Both the position numbers and the translations under genes were made by a program. The notes under the pieces are model-generated. The model saw only the letters and a program-made list of their open reading frames with translations, was not told the origin of the DNA and did not search any database. A DNA stretch of 35,526 nt, taken from NCBI GenBank assembly GCA_022823725.1, contig JAJEHL010000003.1, positions 1-35,526 on the forward strand, written 5' to 3'. Below are positions 11,424 through 20,641 of the stretch, piece after piece. The DNA comes from Candidatus Latescibacterota bacterium. Lineage in GTDB: Bacteria; Latescibacterota; UBA2968. Each line of letters opens with the position of its first letter. Positions within the stretch are counted from its first letter, which is position 1.

Positions 11424-14048
11424 ATGGCGACGCAATTGACACCTGCGATGGAACAGTACGCGCGTTTTAAGGAGCAACATCCAGATGCGATTTTGCTGTT
11501 TCGGATGGGCGATTTTTACGAGACGTTTTACGACGATGCTGTTGTTGCATCTCAGCTTTTGGGATTGACGTTGACATCGCGCAACAACGGGCGTGCAGAT
11601 CGCATCCCACTGGCAGGTGTTCCGCATCACGCGCTGGATACGTATCTCGCAAGACTTATCAAAGCCGGTAAAAAGGTGGCGATTTGTGAGCAGATGGAGC
11701 CACCTCAAAAGGGCAAAAAAGTGGTGCGCCGCGAGGTGGTGCAGGTCGTATCGCCTGGCACGGTAATGTCCGATGATCTGCTCGATCAAAAGCGCAATAA
11801 TTATCTTGTGGGCATTTATGTTTCTGACGATCAATTGGGCGTGGCAACAGCGGATTTGTCAACGGGGATGTTCAGGGCATCGGAACGCGCGGCAGATGAT
11901 TTGTGGGAGGTATTGGAGCGCGTGGCTCCCGCAGAGGTGCTGGCCCCTGAGTCGTGGGTCAAAGACAACGAAGCCGAGTTTGAAGCGCGGATGCCAGGTG
12001 CATTGCTCACGCATATAGAAGATTGGCACTTTGGACAACACTATGCGTACGATGCACTGAAGGAGCATTTTAAGGTGGCGTCTCTCAAGGGCTTTGGGTG
12101 CGATGACCTCACCGTTGGGATATGCGCCGCGGGCGGCGTGCTGTGTTACTTGCGCGAAAATCAGAAGGGAGCCGTATCCCATATTACGCGATTGGCGCGG
12201 GAGCACACCGAGTCGGTGATGGAACTGGATCTGGTGACACAGCGCAATCTGGAACTGGTGACAACCATTCAAGAGGGGCGGCGCGAGGGCACGCTATTTG
12301 GAGTTTTAGATCAGACGTGTACACCGCAGGGCGCACGAACACTGCGTACATGGTTATCACAGCCACTTGTAGATGTTGGTCGCATTGAAGCGCGTTTAGA
12401 TGCGGTGCAAGCATTTGTCGAATCTGCGGTGTGTCGGAACGAAGCGCGAGAGGCTTTGCGCCGCATTGGAGATCTGGAGCGGTTGATGTCCCGAATTTGT
12501 TGCAATCGGGCCAGTCCGCGAGAGCTTGTGGCTCTCCAGCGGTCTTTGGAAGCGGTTGTTCCACTGCGAGAAACCCTGCGCGAATTTCGTGCGGATTTGC
12601 TGGTGAAGGCACGCGATCAGGGCATGCCGGACCTGACAGAGTTGATAGAGTTGATCGCTCACACGCTTGAAGACGATCCGCCTGCACAGATCAGCGATGG
12701 CGGATATATCAGAACGGGCTATCACAAAGAACTGGATGAGTTGCGGGAAATCGCTTCGGGCGGGCGCGATTGGGTCGCCAATCTGCAGGCAGAGGAACGC
12801 GAGAAAACGGGTATCGCGTCGTTGAAGGTGGGGTATAACAAGGCATTTGGATATTATATTGAGGTCACCAAGGCCAATCAGGATAAGGTGCCCGCATATT
12901 TTGTGCGGAAGCAAACGCTGGTCAATGCCGAGCGGTATATCACGCCAGAGTTGAAGGATTGGGAGGCGAAAATTTTGGGCGCTGATGAGCGGGCCAGAGA
13001 TCTCGAGCGCGATTTGTTTGCCGCGTTGCGCGAAAAGGTGGCCGGTTGGGTGGAACCCGTTCAGCGCACGGCACTATCCGTGGCCACTGTAGATGTGTTG
13101 AGCACTCTGGCCGAGGTGGCATCGTCCAATGATTATGTGCGTCCTCAGGTGGATGATAGCGTGCGTATTGATGTGGAAGAAGGGCGACATCCCGCGGTTG
13201 AGCAGTTGCTTCCGGGCGGCAATTTTGTGCCCAATGATCTGACGATTGATGGCGAGAAAGATCAAATTTTGCTGATTACTGGCCCAAATATGTCGGGGAA
13301 ATCGACGATTTTGCGCCAGACAGGGTTGATTGTGCTTTTGGCACAGGTCGGCAGTTTTGTGCCGGCGCGCGAAGCGCGTATTGGGGTGGTGGATCGCATT
13401 TTTACACGGGTGGGTGCATCCGATAATCTGGCTCGGGGCGAGAGTACGTTTTTGGTGGAGATGAATGAGGCTGCGAATATTTTGAATAATGCGACGCCGA
13501 AGAGTCTGGTGCTTTTGGATGAGATCGGGCGCGGGACGAGTACGTTTGACGGGTTGAGCATTGCCTGGGCAATGACGGAGTATTTGCACAATGCCGAACA
13601 GATTCAGCCGCGGACGTTATTTGCGACGCATTATCACGAGTTGACAGAATTGGAGGATTTGCTGCCGCGGGTGGTGAATTACAGCGTTGCTGTGCGCGAG
13701 ACGGGCGATACGATTGCGTTTTTACACAAGTTGGTGCCGGGCGGGTGCGACCACAGCTATGGCATAGAGGTGGCGCGTTTGGCCGGGATGCCGACAGAGA
13801 TGATTGCGCGGGCAAAGGAGATTTTAAATCGGCTGGAGCAAAACGATCTGTCTGTGGGATCAAAGCCCCAACCCGACCGCGTGAAGGAGAATGGGCAGAT
13901 GCCTCTGTTTGCGCCGGTAGCAGAAGTGAAGGTTGAGCGGGAGGATCATCCGATGCTGTCTGAGTTGCGCGATTTAGATATTGCCCGTCTCACGCCCGTT
14001 GAGGCGCTGGTAAAATTAGATGCGTGGAAGCGGACGTTGGAAGATTGA
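11424..14048 (+). CDS. mutS: DNA mismatch repair protein MutS
   Basis: Recognises mismatches and small loops in newly replicated DNA and starts repair. The mismatch-reading Phe-X-Glu lies in GDFYE at about 29-33. The ATPase domain has Walker A GPNMSGKST at about 620-628 and the Walker B/signature LVLLDEIGRGTSTFDG from about 695, followed by FATHYHELTEL. The full length of 874 aa and a C-terminal LDAWKRTLED support MutS1 rather than MutS2. The expected partner mutL is not downstream: a xisH-xisI unit flanked by copies of the mutS 3' end lies there instead. Confidence 0.97.
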   Translation: MATQLTPAMEQYARFKEQHPDAILLFRMGDFYETFYDDAVVASQLLGLTLTSRNNGRADRIPLAGVPHHALDTYLARLIKAGKKVAICEQMEPPQKGKKVVRREVVQVVSPGTVMSDDLLDQKRNNYLVGIYVSDDQLGVATADLSTGMFRASERAADDLWEVLERVAPAEVLAPESWVKDNEAEFEARMPGALLTHIEDWHFGQHYAYDALKEHFKVASLKGFGCDDLTVGICAAGGVLCYLRENQKGAVSHITRLAREHTESVMELDLVTQRNLELVTTIQEGRREGTLFGVLDQTCTPQGARTLRTWLSQPLVDVGRIEARLDAVQAFVESAVCRNEAREALRRIGDLERLMSRICCNRASPRELVALQRSLEAVVPLRETLREFRADLLVKARDQGMPDLTELIELIAHTLEDDPPAQISDGGYIRTGYHKELDELREIASGGRDWVANLQAEEREKTGIASLKVGYNKAFGYYIEVTKANQDKVPAYFVRKQTLVNAERYITPELKDWEAKILGADERARDLERDLFAALREKVAGWVEPVQRTALSVATVDVLSTLAEVASSNDYVRPQVDDSVRIDVEEGRHPAVEQLLPGGNFVPNDLTIDGEKDQILLITGPNMSGKSTILRQTGLIVLLAQVGSFVPAREARIGVVDRIFTRVGASDNLARGESTFLVEMNEAANILNNATPKSLVLLDEIGRGTSTFDGLSIAWAMTEYLHNAEQIQPRTLFATHYHELTELEDLLPRVVNYSVAVRETGDTIAFLHKLVPGGCDHSYGIEVARLAGMPTEMIARAKEILNRLEQNDLSVGSKPQPDRVKENGQMPLFAPVAEVKVEREDHPMLSELRDLDIARLTPVEALVKLDAWKRTLED

Positions 14049-14072
14049 TTTGGAGGTAGATAAACTGGCAAC
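14016..14072 (+). repeat. mutS 3'-end direct repeat, copy 1
   Basis: The 57 bp from TTAGATGC to TGGCAAC cover the last mutS codons (L-D-A-W-K-R-T-L-E-D-stop) plus 24 bp downstream. They match 14881-14937 without gaps at 48 of 57 positions. The repeat ends in CTGGCAACG, where copy 2 has ATGGCAACT. Confidence 0.85.
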
Positions 14073-14095
14073 GATTTCAGAGGAGACACCAGCTA

Positions 14096-14512
14096 ATGCC
14101 AGCTAAAGACACATATCACGACACAGTGAGGAATGCCTTAATCAAAGACGGCTGGAAGATTACACATGATCCGTACCGAATGATATGGGGTTCAACGCGC
14201 TTCTTTGTTGATTTAGCCGCTGAGCCACTGTTAGCAGCAGAGAAAGAAAATCAGAAAATTGCTATTGAAATCAAGAGTTTCACTGGTCAATCCAATATGG
14301 TAGATCTCGAAAAAGCATTGGGGCAGTACATTTTGTACCGTACCATTATGCAGAAAGTTGAACCCAATCGTATTTTGTACCTCGCTGTCTCTGAAAAGGC
14401 CGTTGAGGAAATTTTTGATGAACCTGTTGGCAGGCTCATAACCGAGAAGCAATCCCTGAAATTGATCTTCTTTGAACCCAAATCGGAGGTGATTACCAGA
14501 TGGATCGAATAG
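14096..14512 (+). CDS. xisH: XisH-like protein (fdxN element excision controlling factor family)
   Basis: 138-aa protein matching the XisH family first defined in cyanobacteria, where XisH and XisI are needed with the recombinase XisF for excision of the nifD/fdxN element. Diagnostic parts are the start PAKDTYHDTVRNALIKDGW, TRFFVDLAAE and the PD-(D/E)XK-like core IAIEIKSF followed by LEKALGQYILYR. The family has a nuclease-like fold, but its biochemical role is not established. The gene overlaps xisI by 13 bp. No xisF-like recombinase is seen here, so its job must be something other than local element excision or act with a remote partner. Confidence 0.9.
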   Translation: MPAKDTYHDTVRNALIKDGWKITHDPYRMIWGSTRFFVDLAAEPLLAAEKENQKIAIEIKSFTGQSNMVDLEKALGQYILYRTIMQKVEPNRILYLAVSEKAVEEIFDEPVGRLITEKQSLKLIFFEPKSEVITRWIE

Positions 14513-14838
14513 AGAAGTACCGAGAAATAGTATTGCAAGTCTTCCGTGAAAATACGGAAGTCCCGGTCGCTCACGATGATATAAAGGACGAAATCATCGT
14601 TGACCGTGAAGCAGACCGCTATCTGTGGATGGCTTCGGGGTGGCGTAAGCGCACGGGTAGCCGGGTTCATGGCTGTATCGCCCGCATTGATATTATTGAT
14701 GGAAAACTGTGGATTCAATACGACGGGACCGAAGGTATTGCGCCAGATTTGGAGCGATACGGCGTGCCAAAAGAGCATATTGTCCTGGGATTTCGCGCCC
14801 CAGATGTTCGACAACATACCGGGTATGCAGTTGAGTAG
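14500..14838 (+). CDS. xisI: XisI-like protein
   Basis: 112-aa partner of XisH. Family features are the start MDRIEKYREIVLQVF, then DREADRYLWMASGW and the conserved core RVHGCIARIDIIDGKLWIQYDG. The C-terminal part (PKEHIVLGFRAPDVRQHTGYA) is typical of the family. AATCGGAGG lies upstream of the start, inside xisH. The pair is very common in cyanobacteria and patchy elsewhere, so horizontal acquisition is likely. The flanking repeats in mutS support insertion. Confidence 0.9.
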   Translation: MDRIEKYREIVLQVFRENTEVPVAHDDIKDEIIVDREADRYLWMASGWRKRTGSRVHGCIARIDIIDGKLWIQYDGTEGIAPDLERYGVPKEHIVLGFRAPDVRQHTGYAVE

Positions 14839-14880
14839 GAAATAACGCGTATTGTCTCCTGCACGCGATACAAATACAGA

Positions 14881-14937
14881 TTAGATGCATGCAAGCGGGC
14901 GTTGGAAGAGTGATCAGGAGATAGATGAAATGGCAAC
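14881..14937 (+). repeat. mutS 3'-end direct repeat, copy 2
   Basis: Diverged copy of 14016-14072 (48/57 identical, no gaps). In the mutS frame it reads L-D-A-C-K-R-A-L-E-E-stop, with the stop codon in the same place as in mutS. Immediately after, ATG at 14930 opens a 31-codon frame (MATVFPIAQENEVV) that ends at a TAG near 15030. This may be the remnant start of the gene that originally followed mutS. Confidence 0.85.
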
Positions 14938-15038
14938 TGTATTCCCCATTGCACAGGAAAATGAGGTTGTGGCGATTAGTCCCATAAATACGATAATCTT
15001 TTCCACCTCTTTGAAGGCTCCCACATAGTCTTTTTTTC

Positions 15039-15158
15039 TTATATACCATCTGCCAGAAACAGATGTTTATCCAACATGATCTCTGGCGGCAGTTGGGCAG
15101 ACGCGACCGCGAAAAGGGCGAAGAAGGCGGGGATGAGAAAGGGAGTAAGCATTCGCAT
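15039..15158 (-). pseudogene. Remnant of a secreted-protein gene: signal peptide and first mature residues
   Basis: A 39-codon frame reads MRMLTPFLIPAFFALFAVAS and then AQLPPEIMLDKHLFLADGI before a stop. It is a classic Sec signal peptide followed by AQLPPEI. The large ankyrin protein 3 kb away has the same mature start (LASAQLPPEIRLDAYLLQA). DNA similarity is obvious between about 15060-15105 here and 18370-18418 there. I read it as the decayed 5' end of a paralogue; nothing downstream in any frame continues the ankyrin protein's sequence. The 348-bp stretch from xisI to the next gene holds only this and repeat copy 2. Confidence 0.6.
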
Positions 15159-16026: not shown

Positions 16027-18471
16027 TCATTTACAATACGGACACTTACTCTCTAACCCATCTTTTTTCAGTGCCGCACAATTCTGTTGCAAGCTCGCAC
16101 GTAATTTACTTATGGCTTCGCTACTTTGCGCTCTCTTGAGCGCGCAGTAGTCATTGAAAGCAGCCATACAGTAAAATCGATAGTGGTCATTATCCGCAAA
16201 ATTACTCTGGTATTTTTCCCCGCACACATTCTCGAGATTTTGAAGTGCCTGCTGCATCGTATCTGGCGCTTGTCCACCCTGAGATTGCGAAGGTGTCGTA
16301 GTCGAATTGCTATTCTCATTCCCAACAGGTTGCTCACTTAACACCCCGTCCATGTACTGGCGTACAGCTTCTGTGACTGCCTCCTGATCTGCAGCGTCTT
16401 TGCCAGCATACATAATCGCAGCACCACCTAAAAGTGCGGCTGCTGCTTTACCGAAACCGTCTCCTTGCTGTGATTTCTCCGCTATTTGCGTCTGGCTGGC
16501 CCCGGCGTCGCGCAGGACCCTGACCACATCCGGATTCTCGTTGTTCTCAACTGCCAGACCCAGAGGCGTGAAGCCCTCTCTATCTTGCGCATTCAGGTCG
16601 GCACCAGCATCAATCAAGACTTGGACAATGGCCGGATTATCGGTGTCTTTAGCCGCCTTATGTAAAGGCGTCTCTTTATCATCGTCCTGCGCCTCTATGT
16701 CGGCACCAGCATTGAGCAGGACTTTAACGACATCCGGATTCTCGTTGTTTTCAGCCGCCTCATGCAGGGGTGTATCGCCCACCCCGTCCTGCCTATTCGG
16801 ATTGGCTCTGGCATTGAGTAGAACTTTAGCGACATCAGCATTCTTGTTGAACACGGCCTCATGCAGAGGTGTTGTAACAGGCCGACCCCGGAAGTCCCTC
16901 CTATTCGGATCGGCCCCGGCACTGAGCAGAATTTTAACTACATCCGGGTTCTCATTGTAAGCGGCCCGGTGTAAGGGCGTGTGTTTAAAAGATGGGTCCT
17001 GGGCTTCAGGATCGATTCCACTTTCAATCAGAGCCTTGACAGCCTCTGGATTCTTATTGTATTTAGCCGCATGATGCAGAAGTGACCATCTATTTTTTTC
17101 TCGATCCTTATAATCGGTTTCAGCCTCAAATAAGGTTTTAATGATCTCCGGATTTGGGTTGGACCAGGCCGAAAAATGCAGAGGTGTCCGTTTGTATTCA
17201 TCCCGTGCTTTAAGGTCGGCACCCGCATTGAGTAGGGTTTTAATGATCTCTGGATTCTTGCTGTACTTAGCTGCGTAGTGCAGTGGTGTCTGTTTATCAT
17301 CACCCTTGGCATTGGGATCGGCCCCGGCATTGATCAGAGCCTTGATAGCAACTGGATTTTCATTATACGTAGCTGCCCAATGTAGAGAAGTCCATTTATC
17401 TTTGATTCGCGTATTGGCCCCGGCTTCAATCAGAACCTTTATAGCGGCAGGACGCTCGAAAAAGACGGCATCAGACAAGGGTGTATTTTTATATTTGTCC
17501 TGCACCTCGATTTTGGCCCCAGCATTGAGCAGGGTCTCAATAGCGTCTATATTCTTGTTCAGGACTGCATAATGCAGGGGTGCGTTTTTATATTTGTCTC
17601 TTGCATCCAGACCGGCTCCAGCATCAACCAAGGCCTTAATTATATCCGGATTCTCGGTATTTTGGGCCGCGCGATGCAAGGGTGTAGCACCTGCATCATT
17701 CCGCTCATTCAGGTCAATGCCTGTGTCAAGGCAGGCGGTCACCTCCTCAAGGGTCGCTGTCTTGAAATATTCTTCTGTGTCCCACCCCCTGCAACTCACC
17801 GCCATTTGAACCTTGTTCATCAACGCCAGAGCTTCAGGATAATGTTGTCCTTCACGTCCTGATACTGCCAGATATTTCAAGACAGATTCGAGTGCCTGAT
17901 CGGGCATGTCCAAGATGCCCGCTGCTTTCGCGTATCTGAAGTGAAACTCATTCGGTAAATCTAATTCGTGCTGCTCCTGCAAGTCGCGGATGTTTTGTAC
18001 CGCATCTCTGCCCCGGATGTGGTCACCATTCCGAATAGACTGCTCAGCTTGCAACAGATAGGCGTCCGTTATGATGTTCGGCGATAGTTGGGACGCGACA
18101 ACTTCCCTTGAAGACCTATCCTGTACCTTGTTCATCAACGCCAGAGCCTCGACATAGTGCTGGCCTTCGCGTCCTGACGCTACCAGATATTTCAAGACAG
18201 ATTCGAGTGCCTGGTCGGACAAATCTACAGCGTCCGCTGCTTTCGCATATCTGAAGTGGAACTCATCCGATAGATCTAATTCGTGCTCTTTCAGCAGGCG
18301 GAGGATGTTTTGTATTGCGGCTTGTGCTCGATAGAGGTCTCCATTGTGAATAGCCTTTTCCGCTTGCAGCAGATAGGCGTCCAACCTGATCTCTGGCGGC
18401 AGTTGGGCGGATGCGAGCGTGAAGAATCCCAGTAAAAATAGCACGGAAATACTTCTGGTTACTCTCTGCAT
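16027..18471 (-). CDS. Secreted ankyrin-repeat protein with duplicated N-terminal modules
   Basis: Large exported protein, 814 aa. A Sec signal peptide occupies residues 1-22 (RSISVLFLLGFFTLASA). Two homologous helical modules follow at about 31-117 and 136-222, each with YLLQAE, a GD turn, EFHFRYAKAA, QALESVLKYL, GREGQHY and EALALMNKVQ. Residues about 234-660 form 12 clear ankyrin repeats (TPLH-type motifs) plus a degenerate leading one with the CLDTG variant. A glycine/alanine-rich hydrophobic stretch (AAAALLGGAAIMYAG) and a Cys-containing tail ending CPYCK complete it. ATG 18471 is chosen because AGGAGAG lies just upstream; longer starts lose the signal peptide position. Ankyrin domains mediate protein binding; in symbionts and predators such proteins may contact hosts, which is only a possibility here. 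Confidence 0.85.
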   Translation of the reverse strand: MQRVTRSISVLFLLGFFTLASAQLPPEIRLDAYLLQAEKAIHNGDLYRAQAAIQNILRLLKEHELDLSDEFHFRYAKAADAVDLSDQALESVLKYLVASGREGQHYVEALALMNKVQDRSSREVVASQLSPNIITDAYLLQAEQSIRNGDHIRGRDAVQNIRDLQEQHELDLPNEFHFRYAKAAGILDMPDQALESVLKYLAVSGREGQHYPEALALMNKVQMAVSCRGWDTEEYFKTATLEEVTACLDTGIDLNERNDAGATPLHRAAQNTENPDIIKALVDAGAGLDARDKYKNAPLHYAVLNKNIDAIETLLNAGAKIEVQDKYKNTPLSDAVFFERPAAIKVLIEAGANTRIKDKWTSLHWAATYNENPVAIKALINAGADPNAKGDDKQTPLHYAAKYSKNPEIIKTLLNAGADLKARDEYKRTPLHFSAWSNPNPEIIKTLFEAETDYKDREKNRWSLLHHAAKYNKNPEAVKALIESGIDPEAQDPSFKHTPLHRAAYNENPDVVKILLSAGADPNRRDFRGRPVTTPLHEAVFNKNADVAKVLLNARANPNRQDGVGDTPLHEAAENNENPDVVKVLLNAGADIEAQDDDKETPLHKAAKDTDNPAIVQVLIDAGADLNAQDREGFTPLGLAVENNENPDVVRVLRDAGASQTQIAEKSQQGDGFGKAAAALLGGAAIMYAGKDAADQEAVTEAVRQYMDGVLSEQPVGNENSNSTTTPSQSQGGQAPDTMQQALQNLENVCGEKYQSNFADNDHYRFYCMAAFNDYCALKRAQSSEAISKLRASLQQNCAALKKDGLESKCPYCK

Positions 18472-18983
18472 GATGTCTCTCCTATCATCAATTTCACCTG
18501 CTATCGCCGAGTACACAGTAATCAGAAATGTAGGCTTCGAGTGTGTAGCCAGCGCAGTCGCGAAGACAGCCCGGTGCAGGTCTTGTGCTTCATACTGCTC
18601 ATCGTCCTGACGGGAACTGAATTTTATTTATAAATGCAAAAATCGTGCCAATGGAAGCGTTGTTCCAGAGAGTTTATTCGTAAAGGATTGTTTTATATAA
18701 AAAAAAGAGCCAATCTGACTATATCATATCGTCGCAGAATAGTCGGATTGGCTCTTACGTAAGACTTTATATCGTCTTAAAAGATGTATTACAGTCTCAA
18801 TCGTCCCATCCCGGTGTCTCGATCTAGGACCAAATACACTGCGTAGAGACTGAGAAACGCTTCGAAACACTCGCTTCCAAAGTGATATTCGAATGTGCGT
18901 CACATCAGTTTCAATACATCAATCCAATATACTTCCTCGGTTTTCACTGAATCTGGTACATCGCTATGAATCGGCAAGTATTC
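18472..18983. other. 512-bp gap between the ankyrin gene and DUF433
   Basis: This stretch holds a strong minus-strand terminator (18699-18754) and a decayed open frame next to DUF433 (18789-18987). A smaller hairpin follows near 18756-18775 (TAAGAC paired with GTCTTA). Between 18472 and 18698 I see no convincing gene; it probably contains the ankyrin promoter, but no clear -35/-10 pair stands out. Confidence 0.5.
18699..18754 (-). terminator. Strong intrinsic terminator of the GNAT-PhyH-DUF433 unit
   Basis: GAGCCAATCTGACTA (18707-18721) pairs with TAGTCGGATTGGCTC (18740-18754): 14 Watson-Crick pairs and one G-T, with an 18-base loop. Read on the minus strand, the stem is followed by eight T (the A run 18699-18706). 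It is oriented to end transcription coming from the DUF433 side. Confidence 0.88.
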
Positions 18984-18987
18984 TCAT
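18789..18987 (-). pseudogene. Decayed partner gene overlapping the DUF433 stop
   Basis: An ATG at 18987 overlaps the DUF433 TGA (ATGA), as in two-gene antitoxin-toxin operons, but the frame stops after MRILADS (TAG). Another frame continues with DVPDSVKTEEVYWIDVLKLM, a TGA, then RTFEYHFGSECFEAFL and on to a stop at 18789. MRILAD followed by VPDSV resembles the start of DUF5615 (PIN-like) toxins, the common partner of DUF433. The rest is not recognisable as that family. I infer a frameshifted and decayed toxin gene, with low certainty about its identity. Confidence 0.4.
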
Positions 18988-19256
18988 CTACCGTTGCCAT
19001 CCATAATAGCGTCAATATCCGCCCAGGTTACATTGGACAGCTTTGCACCAGTGGCGGCGTAATCCCGACAGGCTCGAATATCCCCCGGGGTGATGTGCGA
19101 GTACATACGAATGATATCGGCTTCGCTGCGCCCCCCGTCCAGCAATTCCATGATCAGTTCCACCGAAATCCGAGTGCCTTTTATTGTTGGTTTTCCGGCC
19201 AGAATCAACGGGTCAGTGACAATGCGATCCTGCCAGATTGGATTCTTATTTTTCAT
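18984..19256 (-). CDS. DUF433 domain protein (antitoxin-like)
   Basis: 90-aa protein of the DUF433 family. It has the typical core DPLILAGKPTIKGTRISVEL followed by IMELLDGGRSEADIIRMYSHITPGDIRACRDYA, a helix-turn-helix-type DNA-binding fold. DUF433 genes usually precede a PIN-like DUF5615 gene and are thought to act as antitoxins. Here the partner appears broken. ATG 19256 has GGAGGAGG 8 bases upstream; the longer frame to 19280 lacks this. It lies 36 bp after the PhyH gene and shares its transcript. Confidence 0.85.
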   Translation of the reverse strand: MKNKNPIWQDRIVTDPLILAGKPTIKGTRISVELIMELLDGGRSEADIIRMYSHITPGDIRACRDYAATGAKLSNVTWADIDAIMDGNGR

Positions 19257-19292
19257 AGCGTGCCTCCTCCTGCTCACCACCTATGCCGTTGC

Positions 19293-20138
19293 CTATTCGC
19301 TACCGATCCCGTGTTCTTCGAGCCAGGTTTTGAGGGGCGCATCTTCGGGGGTGGGGGAGGTGTAGCCGCGACCACCGGAGTAGCTGACGCCGAGGAGTTG
19401 TTTTTGGATGGGCGTGCAGCGGTCGAGATAGTGTTCTACCTGCATGTCGTCGCGGGGGCGAAGCCAGCGGTAGGAGTAGCCGTAGAAGAGTACGCGGCGG
19501 GGTTCCTTCCAGTAGTTGGTACTGGCGGAGTGCCATAAGCGGCGGTCGAAAAACACGGCTGATCCGGGGGGTACGAGCACCGGGACAGCATCTTTGTGCG
19601 GCGCGTTGCGATCTTCTCCGGGAAATGTGTTTTGCGTTTGGCTTTTGGGAAGGACGTAGAAATTGCCGCGGCCCGGTTCGGTTGTGTCGGTGAGAAAAAA
19701 ACCGATTTTGAGGGAGATCATGGGACGTGGGATCATGTCAAAATCCTGATTGATGCGGCCACTGTCTTGATGGAAACCGAGGCCAGGTCCGTCTTTTTCG
19801 AGTGTTTTGTGCGGTTCTGAAGGGGGTGTCACAGTCATGTGGGTGTGGTAGAGTTGGATGTGCCAGCCCAGGATGCCCCACACTTTGGGGAATGTTTTGT
19901 ACCAGTCGAGCAGGGGCAAAAAGTGGTCGTCCTTGCCAATGAAGTCGTAGTGGTTGATGCGCGCTGTGGCGCTTTTGCCCATTCGAGCGCGTTCTTCTTT
20001 ATCCACGCGATCTACTGCAACGACGAGATCGCTGACCATGTCTGGGGGCAGGGCATCCGGAACGATGAAATAGCCATCCCGTTTGAATTTGCGCGCTTCT
20101 TCTTCTGTCAGACAATAATCGAGACATTTGGGGTGCAT
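19293..20138 (-). CDS. Phytanoyl-CoA dioxygenase (PhyH) family protein
   Basis: Fe(II)/2-oxoglutarate-dependent oxygenase, 281 aa. The iron triad is visible: H123 and D125 in GFHQDSGR, and H203 in RRLWHSAS, with the 2-oxoglutarate-binding Arg in KEPRRVLFYGYS. PhyH proteins hydroxylate diverse small molecules; the substrate cannot be read from sequence. ATG 20138 has AGGAGC upstream. It lies 41 bp after the GNAT gene and ahead of DUF433. PhyH genes are greatly expanded in Latescibacterota/Poribacteria-like genomes. Confidence 0.9.
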   Translation of the reverse strand: MHPKCLDYCLTEEEARKFKRDGYFIVPDALPPDMVSDLVVAVDRVDKEERARMGKSATARINHYDFIGKDDHFLPLLDWYKTFPKVWGILGWHIQLYHTHMTVTPPSEPHKTLEKDGPGLGFHQDSGRINQDFDMIPRPMISLKIGFFLTDTTEPGRGNFYVLPKSQTQNTFPGEDRNAPHKDAVPVLVPPGSAVFFDRRLWHSASTNYWKEPRRVLFYGYSYRWLRPRDDMQVEHYLDRCTPIQKQLLGVSYSGGRGYTSPTPEDAPLKTWLEEHGIGSE

Positions 20139-20179
20139 TGTATCTGGCTCCTTTTGAGATTGGGGGGAAAGACGTAATC

Positions 20180-20641
20180 TCACACCTTTGTTTTCCAACG
20201 TCGCGTCAGTACATACCGATCTTCTGCAGCGCGATAATAACCTTTCACAAAGTTTTTCTCACTAAATCCCCATTTTTCGTACAGGGAAATAGCACTTTCA
20301 TTTTCGGGATCTACGGTTAAAAAACAATCCACACCGAGTTGATCGCACGCGGCCAAAATCGCATCGAACAAAGCAGAACCAATGCCTTTGCCGCGATGGG
20401 GATGATCCACAAATACTTTGTGCAAACAATACAGCCTGTCCGTCCTCGTGGGAAATGCCAGCACAGCACCGATCAGTTTCTCTTTTTCCCATGCACAAAA
20501 TACCAGCGCGTGCTCTGCCCACAATCGCCAGACGTGTTCTCCATCGGGAATATACTCAGAATTTCGGTTTTGTGCCCATGCTTCGCGATCCAATTTTGCG
20601 ATTTCCAAAAAATCGCGTGTTTCGGCACGTTGGATGTGCAT
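20180..20641 (-). CDS. GNAT-family N-acetyltransferase
   Basis: Acetyl-CoA-dependent acetyltransferase, 153 aa. The acetyl-CoA loop R83-G-K-G-I-G lies in HPHRGKGIGSALFDAI, and the late motif ENESAISLYEKWGF (about 113-126) is typical of GNAT motif B. The beta-strand LIGAVLAFP precedes it. The acceptor substrate is unknown. It is the first gene of the minus-strand GNAT-PhyH-DUF433 unit; AAGGAT lies upstream of the start. A weak promoter candidate is TTGACG (complement of 20703-20708) with TATCTA (complement of 20678-20683), though the 19-bp spacing is poor. Confidence 0.88.
   Translation of the reverse strand: MHIQRAETRDFLEIAKLDREAWAQNRNSEYIPDGEHVWRLWAEHALVFCAWEKEKLIGAVLAFPTRTDRLYCLHKVFVDHPHRGKGIGSALFDAILAACDQLGVDCFLTVDPENESAISLYEKWGFSEKNFVKGYYRAAEDRYVLTRRWKTKV

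Follow-up and report, generated by a model that had tools for sequence, protein, structure and literature searches.

xisH and xisI lie between duplicated mutS ends

In the 35,526-nt stretch of Latescibacterota DNA analysed here (the window), an intact mutS gene (11424..14048, + strand; 874 amino acids, Pfam MutS domains I–V) is followed by two small genes, xisH (14096..14512, +; 138 amino acids, a PD-(D/E)XK-type protein; PF08814, E 7e-54) and xisI (14500..14838, +; 112 amino acids; PF08869, E 1.5e-34; homologue PDB 2nlv). Both genes are intact and overlap by 13 bp. XisH scored 182 bits against PF08814 over model positions 1–133 of 134 and XisI scored 119 bits against PF08869 (curated cut-off 25 in each case), and the D...ExK residues of XisH are kept, VDLAAE...IAIEIKSF aligning with the same motif in PDB 2okf and 2inb. 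Neither protein was matched by PADLOC or NCBIfam.

The pair is bracketed by a direct repeat. Copy 1 (14015..14072, +) comprises the final 34 bp of mutS and the next 24 bp, reaching the first bases of an antitoxin-like gene whose start is now CTG, and copy 2 (14880..14937, +) comprises the mutS end, the intergenic stretch and the start of the antitoxin-like gene. The copies are identical at 49 of 58 positions (84%), lie 865 bp apart from start to start, share a longest exact run of 10 bp and have the same frame and stop position; among 200,000 random pairs with the same spacing, the maximum was 30/58. An earlier note, made from the letters of the window, had described a duplicated mutS end of 57 bp around an 808-bp insert carrying xisH and xisI alone, and apart from the lengths, which we measured as 58 and 807 bp, that description was borne out. 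Across 822 kb of this genome the 58-bp repeat occurs at two sites only (the next best 58-mer reaches 33/58), which rules out the widespread intergenic element that the earlier note had weighed against its reading. An RNA element was rejected as well.

XisH occurs once in its own genome and in no other among the 64 phylum genomes searched, the nearest relatives found are cyanobacterial (55–56% identity), and G+C falls from about 0.53–0.57 in mutS to 0.46 in xisHI. To either side of the pair the contig keeps synteny with congeners and is therefore not mis-binned. XisH was found in 37 plasmid records, the organisms listed being cyanobacterial genera, and in no phage record; it is patchy in one Bacteroidota order (23/399 genomes). 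At four cyanobacterial loci (L086, L088, L089 and L091) xisHI units are repeated in tandem, with as many as three in series.

Related genomes hold a single copy and no xisHI

We read across the mutS end in ten same-genus genomes, none of which carries the xisHI pair; an xisHI pair at mutS lacking the second repeat, which the earlier note had held against its reading, was thus not seen among them. Identity of mutS DNA to same-genus relatives is 92–95%, with the exception of G008 (84%). In G007 (L046) and G008 (L047) additional sequence splits the alignment of the mutS 3′ coding region into two pieces; G007 also aligns poorly with the window in this region (84% at 13799).

At seven congener loci (G002, G004, G005, G006, G007, G009 and G010b) one copy of the block lies behind mutS, without xisHI, and runs into a small antitoxin-like gene, MATVDLRTEAKQILDKLSDESLE... 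(MATVDLRTEAK...), so that the filled site in the window holds an extra copy of resident target DNA. These loci provide the comparison that the earlier note had proposed, relatives with mutS followed directly by the downstream gene, and support its claim of an acquired insert, a duplicated target and recombination at the mutS end. Copy 2 is 93% identical to the single copy of G002, and its similarity to congeners extends to about 14940.

The small follower gene gives a sub-threshold Pfam match only (DUF6247); we infer that it is antitoxin-like from its small size, its acidic tail and its position ahead of ParE, PIN or TIR genes. In the window, comparison with congeners identifies its leftover start, ATGGCAACTGT (14931..14941, +), which is joined at 14942 to a 41-bp scrap of a periplasmic-binding-protein gene (Peripla_BP_6; 14942..14982, +; 88% to G000:C45:186769-186809), and the remainder of the gene beyond its first bases is absent from the genome. 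Displacement of the original follower of mutS is thereby upheld, and its suggested identity as mutL is ruled out, since the congener block continues into the antitoxin-like gene. The proposed parallel between LATISEE after copy 1 and MATVFPIAQ after copy 2 likewise holds for the gene start that they share: LATISEE opens with the mutated start (ATG to CTG), and MATVFPIAQ is ATGGCAACTGT fused to the periplasmic-binding-protein scrap.

The mutS–phyH interval is a hotspot

The interval between mutS and the convergent gene phyH (19293..20198, −), which differs in nearly every congener, is a hotspot of toxin–antitoxin (TA) and defence modules in this genus. Congener cargo includes ParE, PIN, CAP12-type TIR, STAND-like ATPase, DUF5615/DUF433, HigA-like and AAA/PD-DEXK genes. 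In six congener genomes the 3′ end of phyH is duplicated, truncated ends lying beside modules at seven loci (G001, G002, G006, G007, G009 and both of G010) with intact phyH at the edge. The phyH remnants measure 41, 57, 104, 134, 146, 186, 191 and 220 bp and differ in their inner boundaries, and this variability argues against a site-specific integrase. When we compared the remnants with phyH of their own genomes as a possible source, all copies were about 90–95% alike. In G001 the mutS end is duplicated too, the second one being at least 82 bp long.

The window carries further traces of turnover in this interval. An ankyrin-repeat protein gene (16027..18516, −), present also in the G002 hotspot, is accompanied by a scrap at 15070..15113 (no strand assigned) that is 89% identical to positions 18380–18423 inside it. 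At 18936–19280 a DUF433 gene (18984..19280, −) is retained, and its lost DUF5615 neighbour is reduced to a 36-bp remnant of the toxin gene (18936..18971, −), which is intact in four congeners (G001, G004, G006 and G007). Elsewhere in the same genome, AbiEi/AbiEii-type and DUF5615 genes lie between duplicated stretches, and the region G000:C2:78000-96000, with dense repeats and partly duplicated genes, is probably another hotspot.

Neighbour-derived repeats flank small modules in general

The earlier note had also proposed looking for repeats of neighbouring gene ends at other XisHI pairs. We scored a unit as flanked when copies of a strong direct repeat lay no more than 300 bp from it on either side. 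By this measure 18 of 157 other xisHI units were flanked, as were 5 of 433 pseudo-units taken from those loci (p 2e-7), a control that is not matched for gene context; mismatched flank pairs gave 1/316. This excess at first favoured an xisHI-specific repeat mechanism, which we dropped because DUF5615 units, drawn largely from the same genomes, matched xisHI in repeat rate: 8/69 versus 19/154 for flanks of equal extent (p 0.53). This comparison, which followed several other measures, draws on a small number of DUF5615 units, each delimited by a single open reading frame. The footprint is thus a general feature of small TA-type modules: direct repeats of neighbour DNA mark about 12% of units in both families, xisHI and DUF5615, and about 1% of control spots.

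Several of these repeats are built from adjoining genes, namely panD in a Saprospiraceae metagenome-assembled genome (MAG), the 5′ end of a TPR gene in Okeania and, in Bacteroidota, the 5′ end of a DUF433 gene and the region upstream of an AAA gene. At the place matching the TPR case, the Okeania relative G481 has a single 60-bp copy, with tandem TPR paralogues as a caveat; no relative informative about a single-copy site was found for the L269 case. Other flanking repeats are intergenic, part of these probably multi-copy. Repeat lengths range from about 40 to 340 bp, five being 58–64 bp, and the xisHI inserts are compact (780–856 bp) and hold xisHI only, with no conserved termini seen among the cases. 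A cassette that targets mutS 3′ ends, as the earlier note had considered, is not supported, since other xisHI pairs adjoin panD, TPR, DUF433 and AAA-ATPase genes and other modules at the present locus adjoin truncated mutS or phyH ends.

Two of the loci have features of their own. In the Saprospiraceae MAG (L090, 1120-2803) xisHI lies between two near-complete panD copies, 91% identical over 341 bp, and the MAG may encode two aspartate decarboxylases. In L186, some 60 bp that immediately precede xisH (2408-2468) recur dozens of times in Okeania genomes and are probably an interspersed repeat.

Excision of the insert is extremely improbable

XisHI is required for excision of the fdxN element in Nostoc PCC 7120, as cited in two papers (PMC2674450, PMC4874684), and the earlier note had linked the locus to programmed DNA excision. 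That link found no support. The genome contains no match to a large serine recombinase of the XisF type (PF07508), and the longest run of identical bases in the two copies is 10. RecA-dependent recombination needs roughly 25–30 bp of identity. In E. coli the minimum is 30 bp (PMC2884548). With no such recombinase detected and a longest shared run under the RecA minimum, programmed or even occasional excision by recombination between the repeats is extremely improbable. Excision would restore nothing in mutS, which is already intact, and the antitoxin-like gene was deleted rather than split, so that the insert interrupts no gene that excision would restore. Moreover, xisHI without xisF is already known (PMC4853749).

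The pair in the window is most likely an accessory TA-like module, made up of nuclease-fold XisH and its partner XisI, and not an excision factor; its putative TA character is suggested by a genomic behaviour that resembles that of TA units.

Route of acquisition

Given the observed repeat, the single-copy sites of relatives, the hotspot and the recurrence of such duplicates with other modules, we consider it probable that xisHI was gained horizontally, as an accessory TA-like module, through homology-facilitated illegitimate recombination. The mutS–phyH interval is a recombination hotspot at which members of the genus gain and lose TA or defence-type modules. An xisHI pair of cyanobacterial type would have been inserted immediately after mutS, where the resident antitoxin-like gene begins; one end of the incoming DNA would have paired with mutS through homology, and the other would have been joined without it. 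The event would have doubled about 60 bp of the target, so that the newcomer has the intact mutS and its end to one side and the old mutS end with the antitoxin-like start to the other; the resident mutS end would thus have survived as a remnant behind the newcomer, and the remaining antitoxin-like gene would have been lost. Such recombination accounts for intact edge genes, truncated inner ends, variable boundaries and repeated events, and it has been proposed for variable segments in general, 10–18% of which are flanked by direct repeats (PMC2884548). The architecture fits its product; no donor with mutS joined to xisHI was found, the mutS gene and mutS end of the window gave no clear signal of an imported tract, and this route does not account for how xisHI was first joined to a mutS end.

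The same arrangement might instead have arisen by local repair, if a break behind mutS with a stagger of about 60 nt was filled in during capture of a linear xisHI fragment, with no incoming mutS homology. We hold this main rival to be unlikely, yet it fits the two copies as well, because they differ from G002 by similar numbers of changes (7 and 4 of 61) and look derived from one G002-like sequence. The compact inserts without common termini, the repeats elsewhere that are pieces of adjoining DNA and the single copy in the Okeania relative point the same way, whereas repeats of about 40 to 340 bp are long and variable for a staggered break, and the Okeania case is weakened by its tandem TPR paralogues. 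A further notion is that small TA-type pairs, xisHI included, move as bare cassettes of less than 1 kb, without an integrase, by a shared and so far undescribed mechanism in which tens to hundreds of target bases are duplicated; we regard it as quite unlikely.

That xisHI itself is a mobile cassette, XisH nicking the target and the pair inserting with a long target duplication, appears very unlikely: the excess of flanking repeats over controls (18/157 versus 5/433), the inserts holding xisHI only and the five repeats of 58–64 bp would suit it, but DUF5615 units show an equal rate, modules without XisH at the mutS–phyH locus show the same duplicates, and the termini have nothing in common. No more weight falls on an earlier tandem duplication of the mutS end and the next gene's start, into which xisHI was inserted afterwards. 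It would produce the same arrangement, and G001 too has a second mutS end, but none of the congener loci examined shows the bare duplication, and two independent events would be required.

On the favoured reading, horizontal gain by homology-facilitated recombination, what seemed suggestive of an excision element is reclassified as an accessory module gained at a genomic hotspot. The locus is an instructive but ordinary case of gene acquisition, with a well-preserved scar in a TA and defence hotspot, and not a switchable excision element. It is a further pointer to a role of XisHI that, outside heterocyst-forming cyanobacteria, is unconnected with programmed DNA rearrangement, and the measured footprint makes integrase-free chromosomal entry of small TA-type modules directly testable.

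Comparison with known systems

The locus shares with the Nostoc fdxN element the same two protein families in the same overlapping order, and differs from it in that the genome yielded no XisF-type large serine recombinase, no gene is interrupted and the insert is just 807 bp long. Integrative elements can replace a gene 3′ end, the old end being left at the far side. The order of intact gene, cargo and truncated old end is the same here, whereas the insert has no integrase, there is no common core and the boundaries of the duplicates vary. The polymorphic E. coli mutS–rpoS interval (PMC4209514) is likewise a mosaic, strain-variable region adjoining mutS; its neighbours are others, whereas here xisHI and TA modules occur with duplicated gene ends. 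In the effector–immunity arrays of the Vibrio type VI secretion system (T6SS), displaced gene ends have been described and homology-facilitated illegitimate recombination proposed (Kirchberger 2017, PMC5361080). As in those arrays, a module lies behind a conserved anchor, the truncated 3′ end of the resident is shifted back, events are successive and no integrase is involved; unlike in them, a housekeeping repair gene serves as anchor at this locus, and the cargo is a TA- or defence-like pair.
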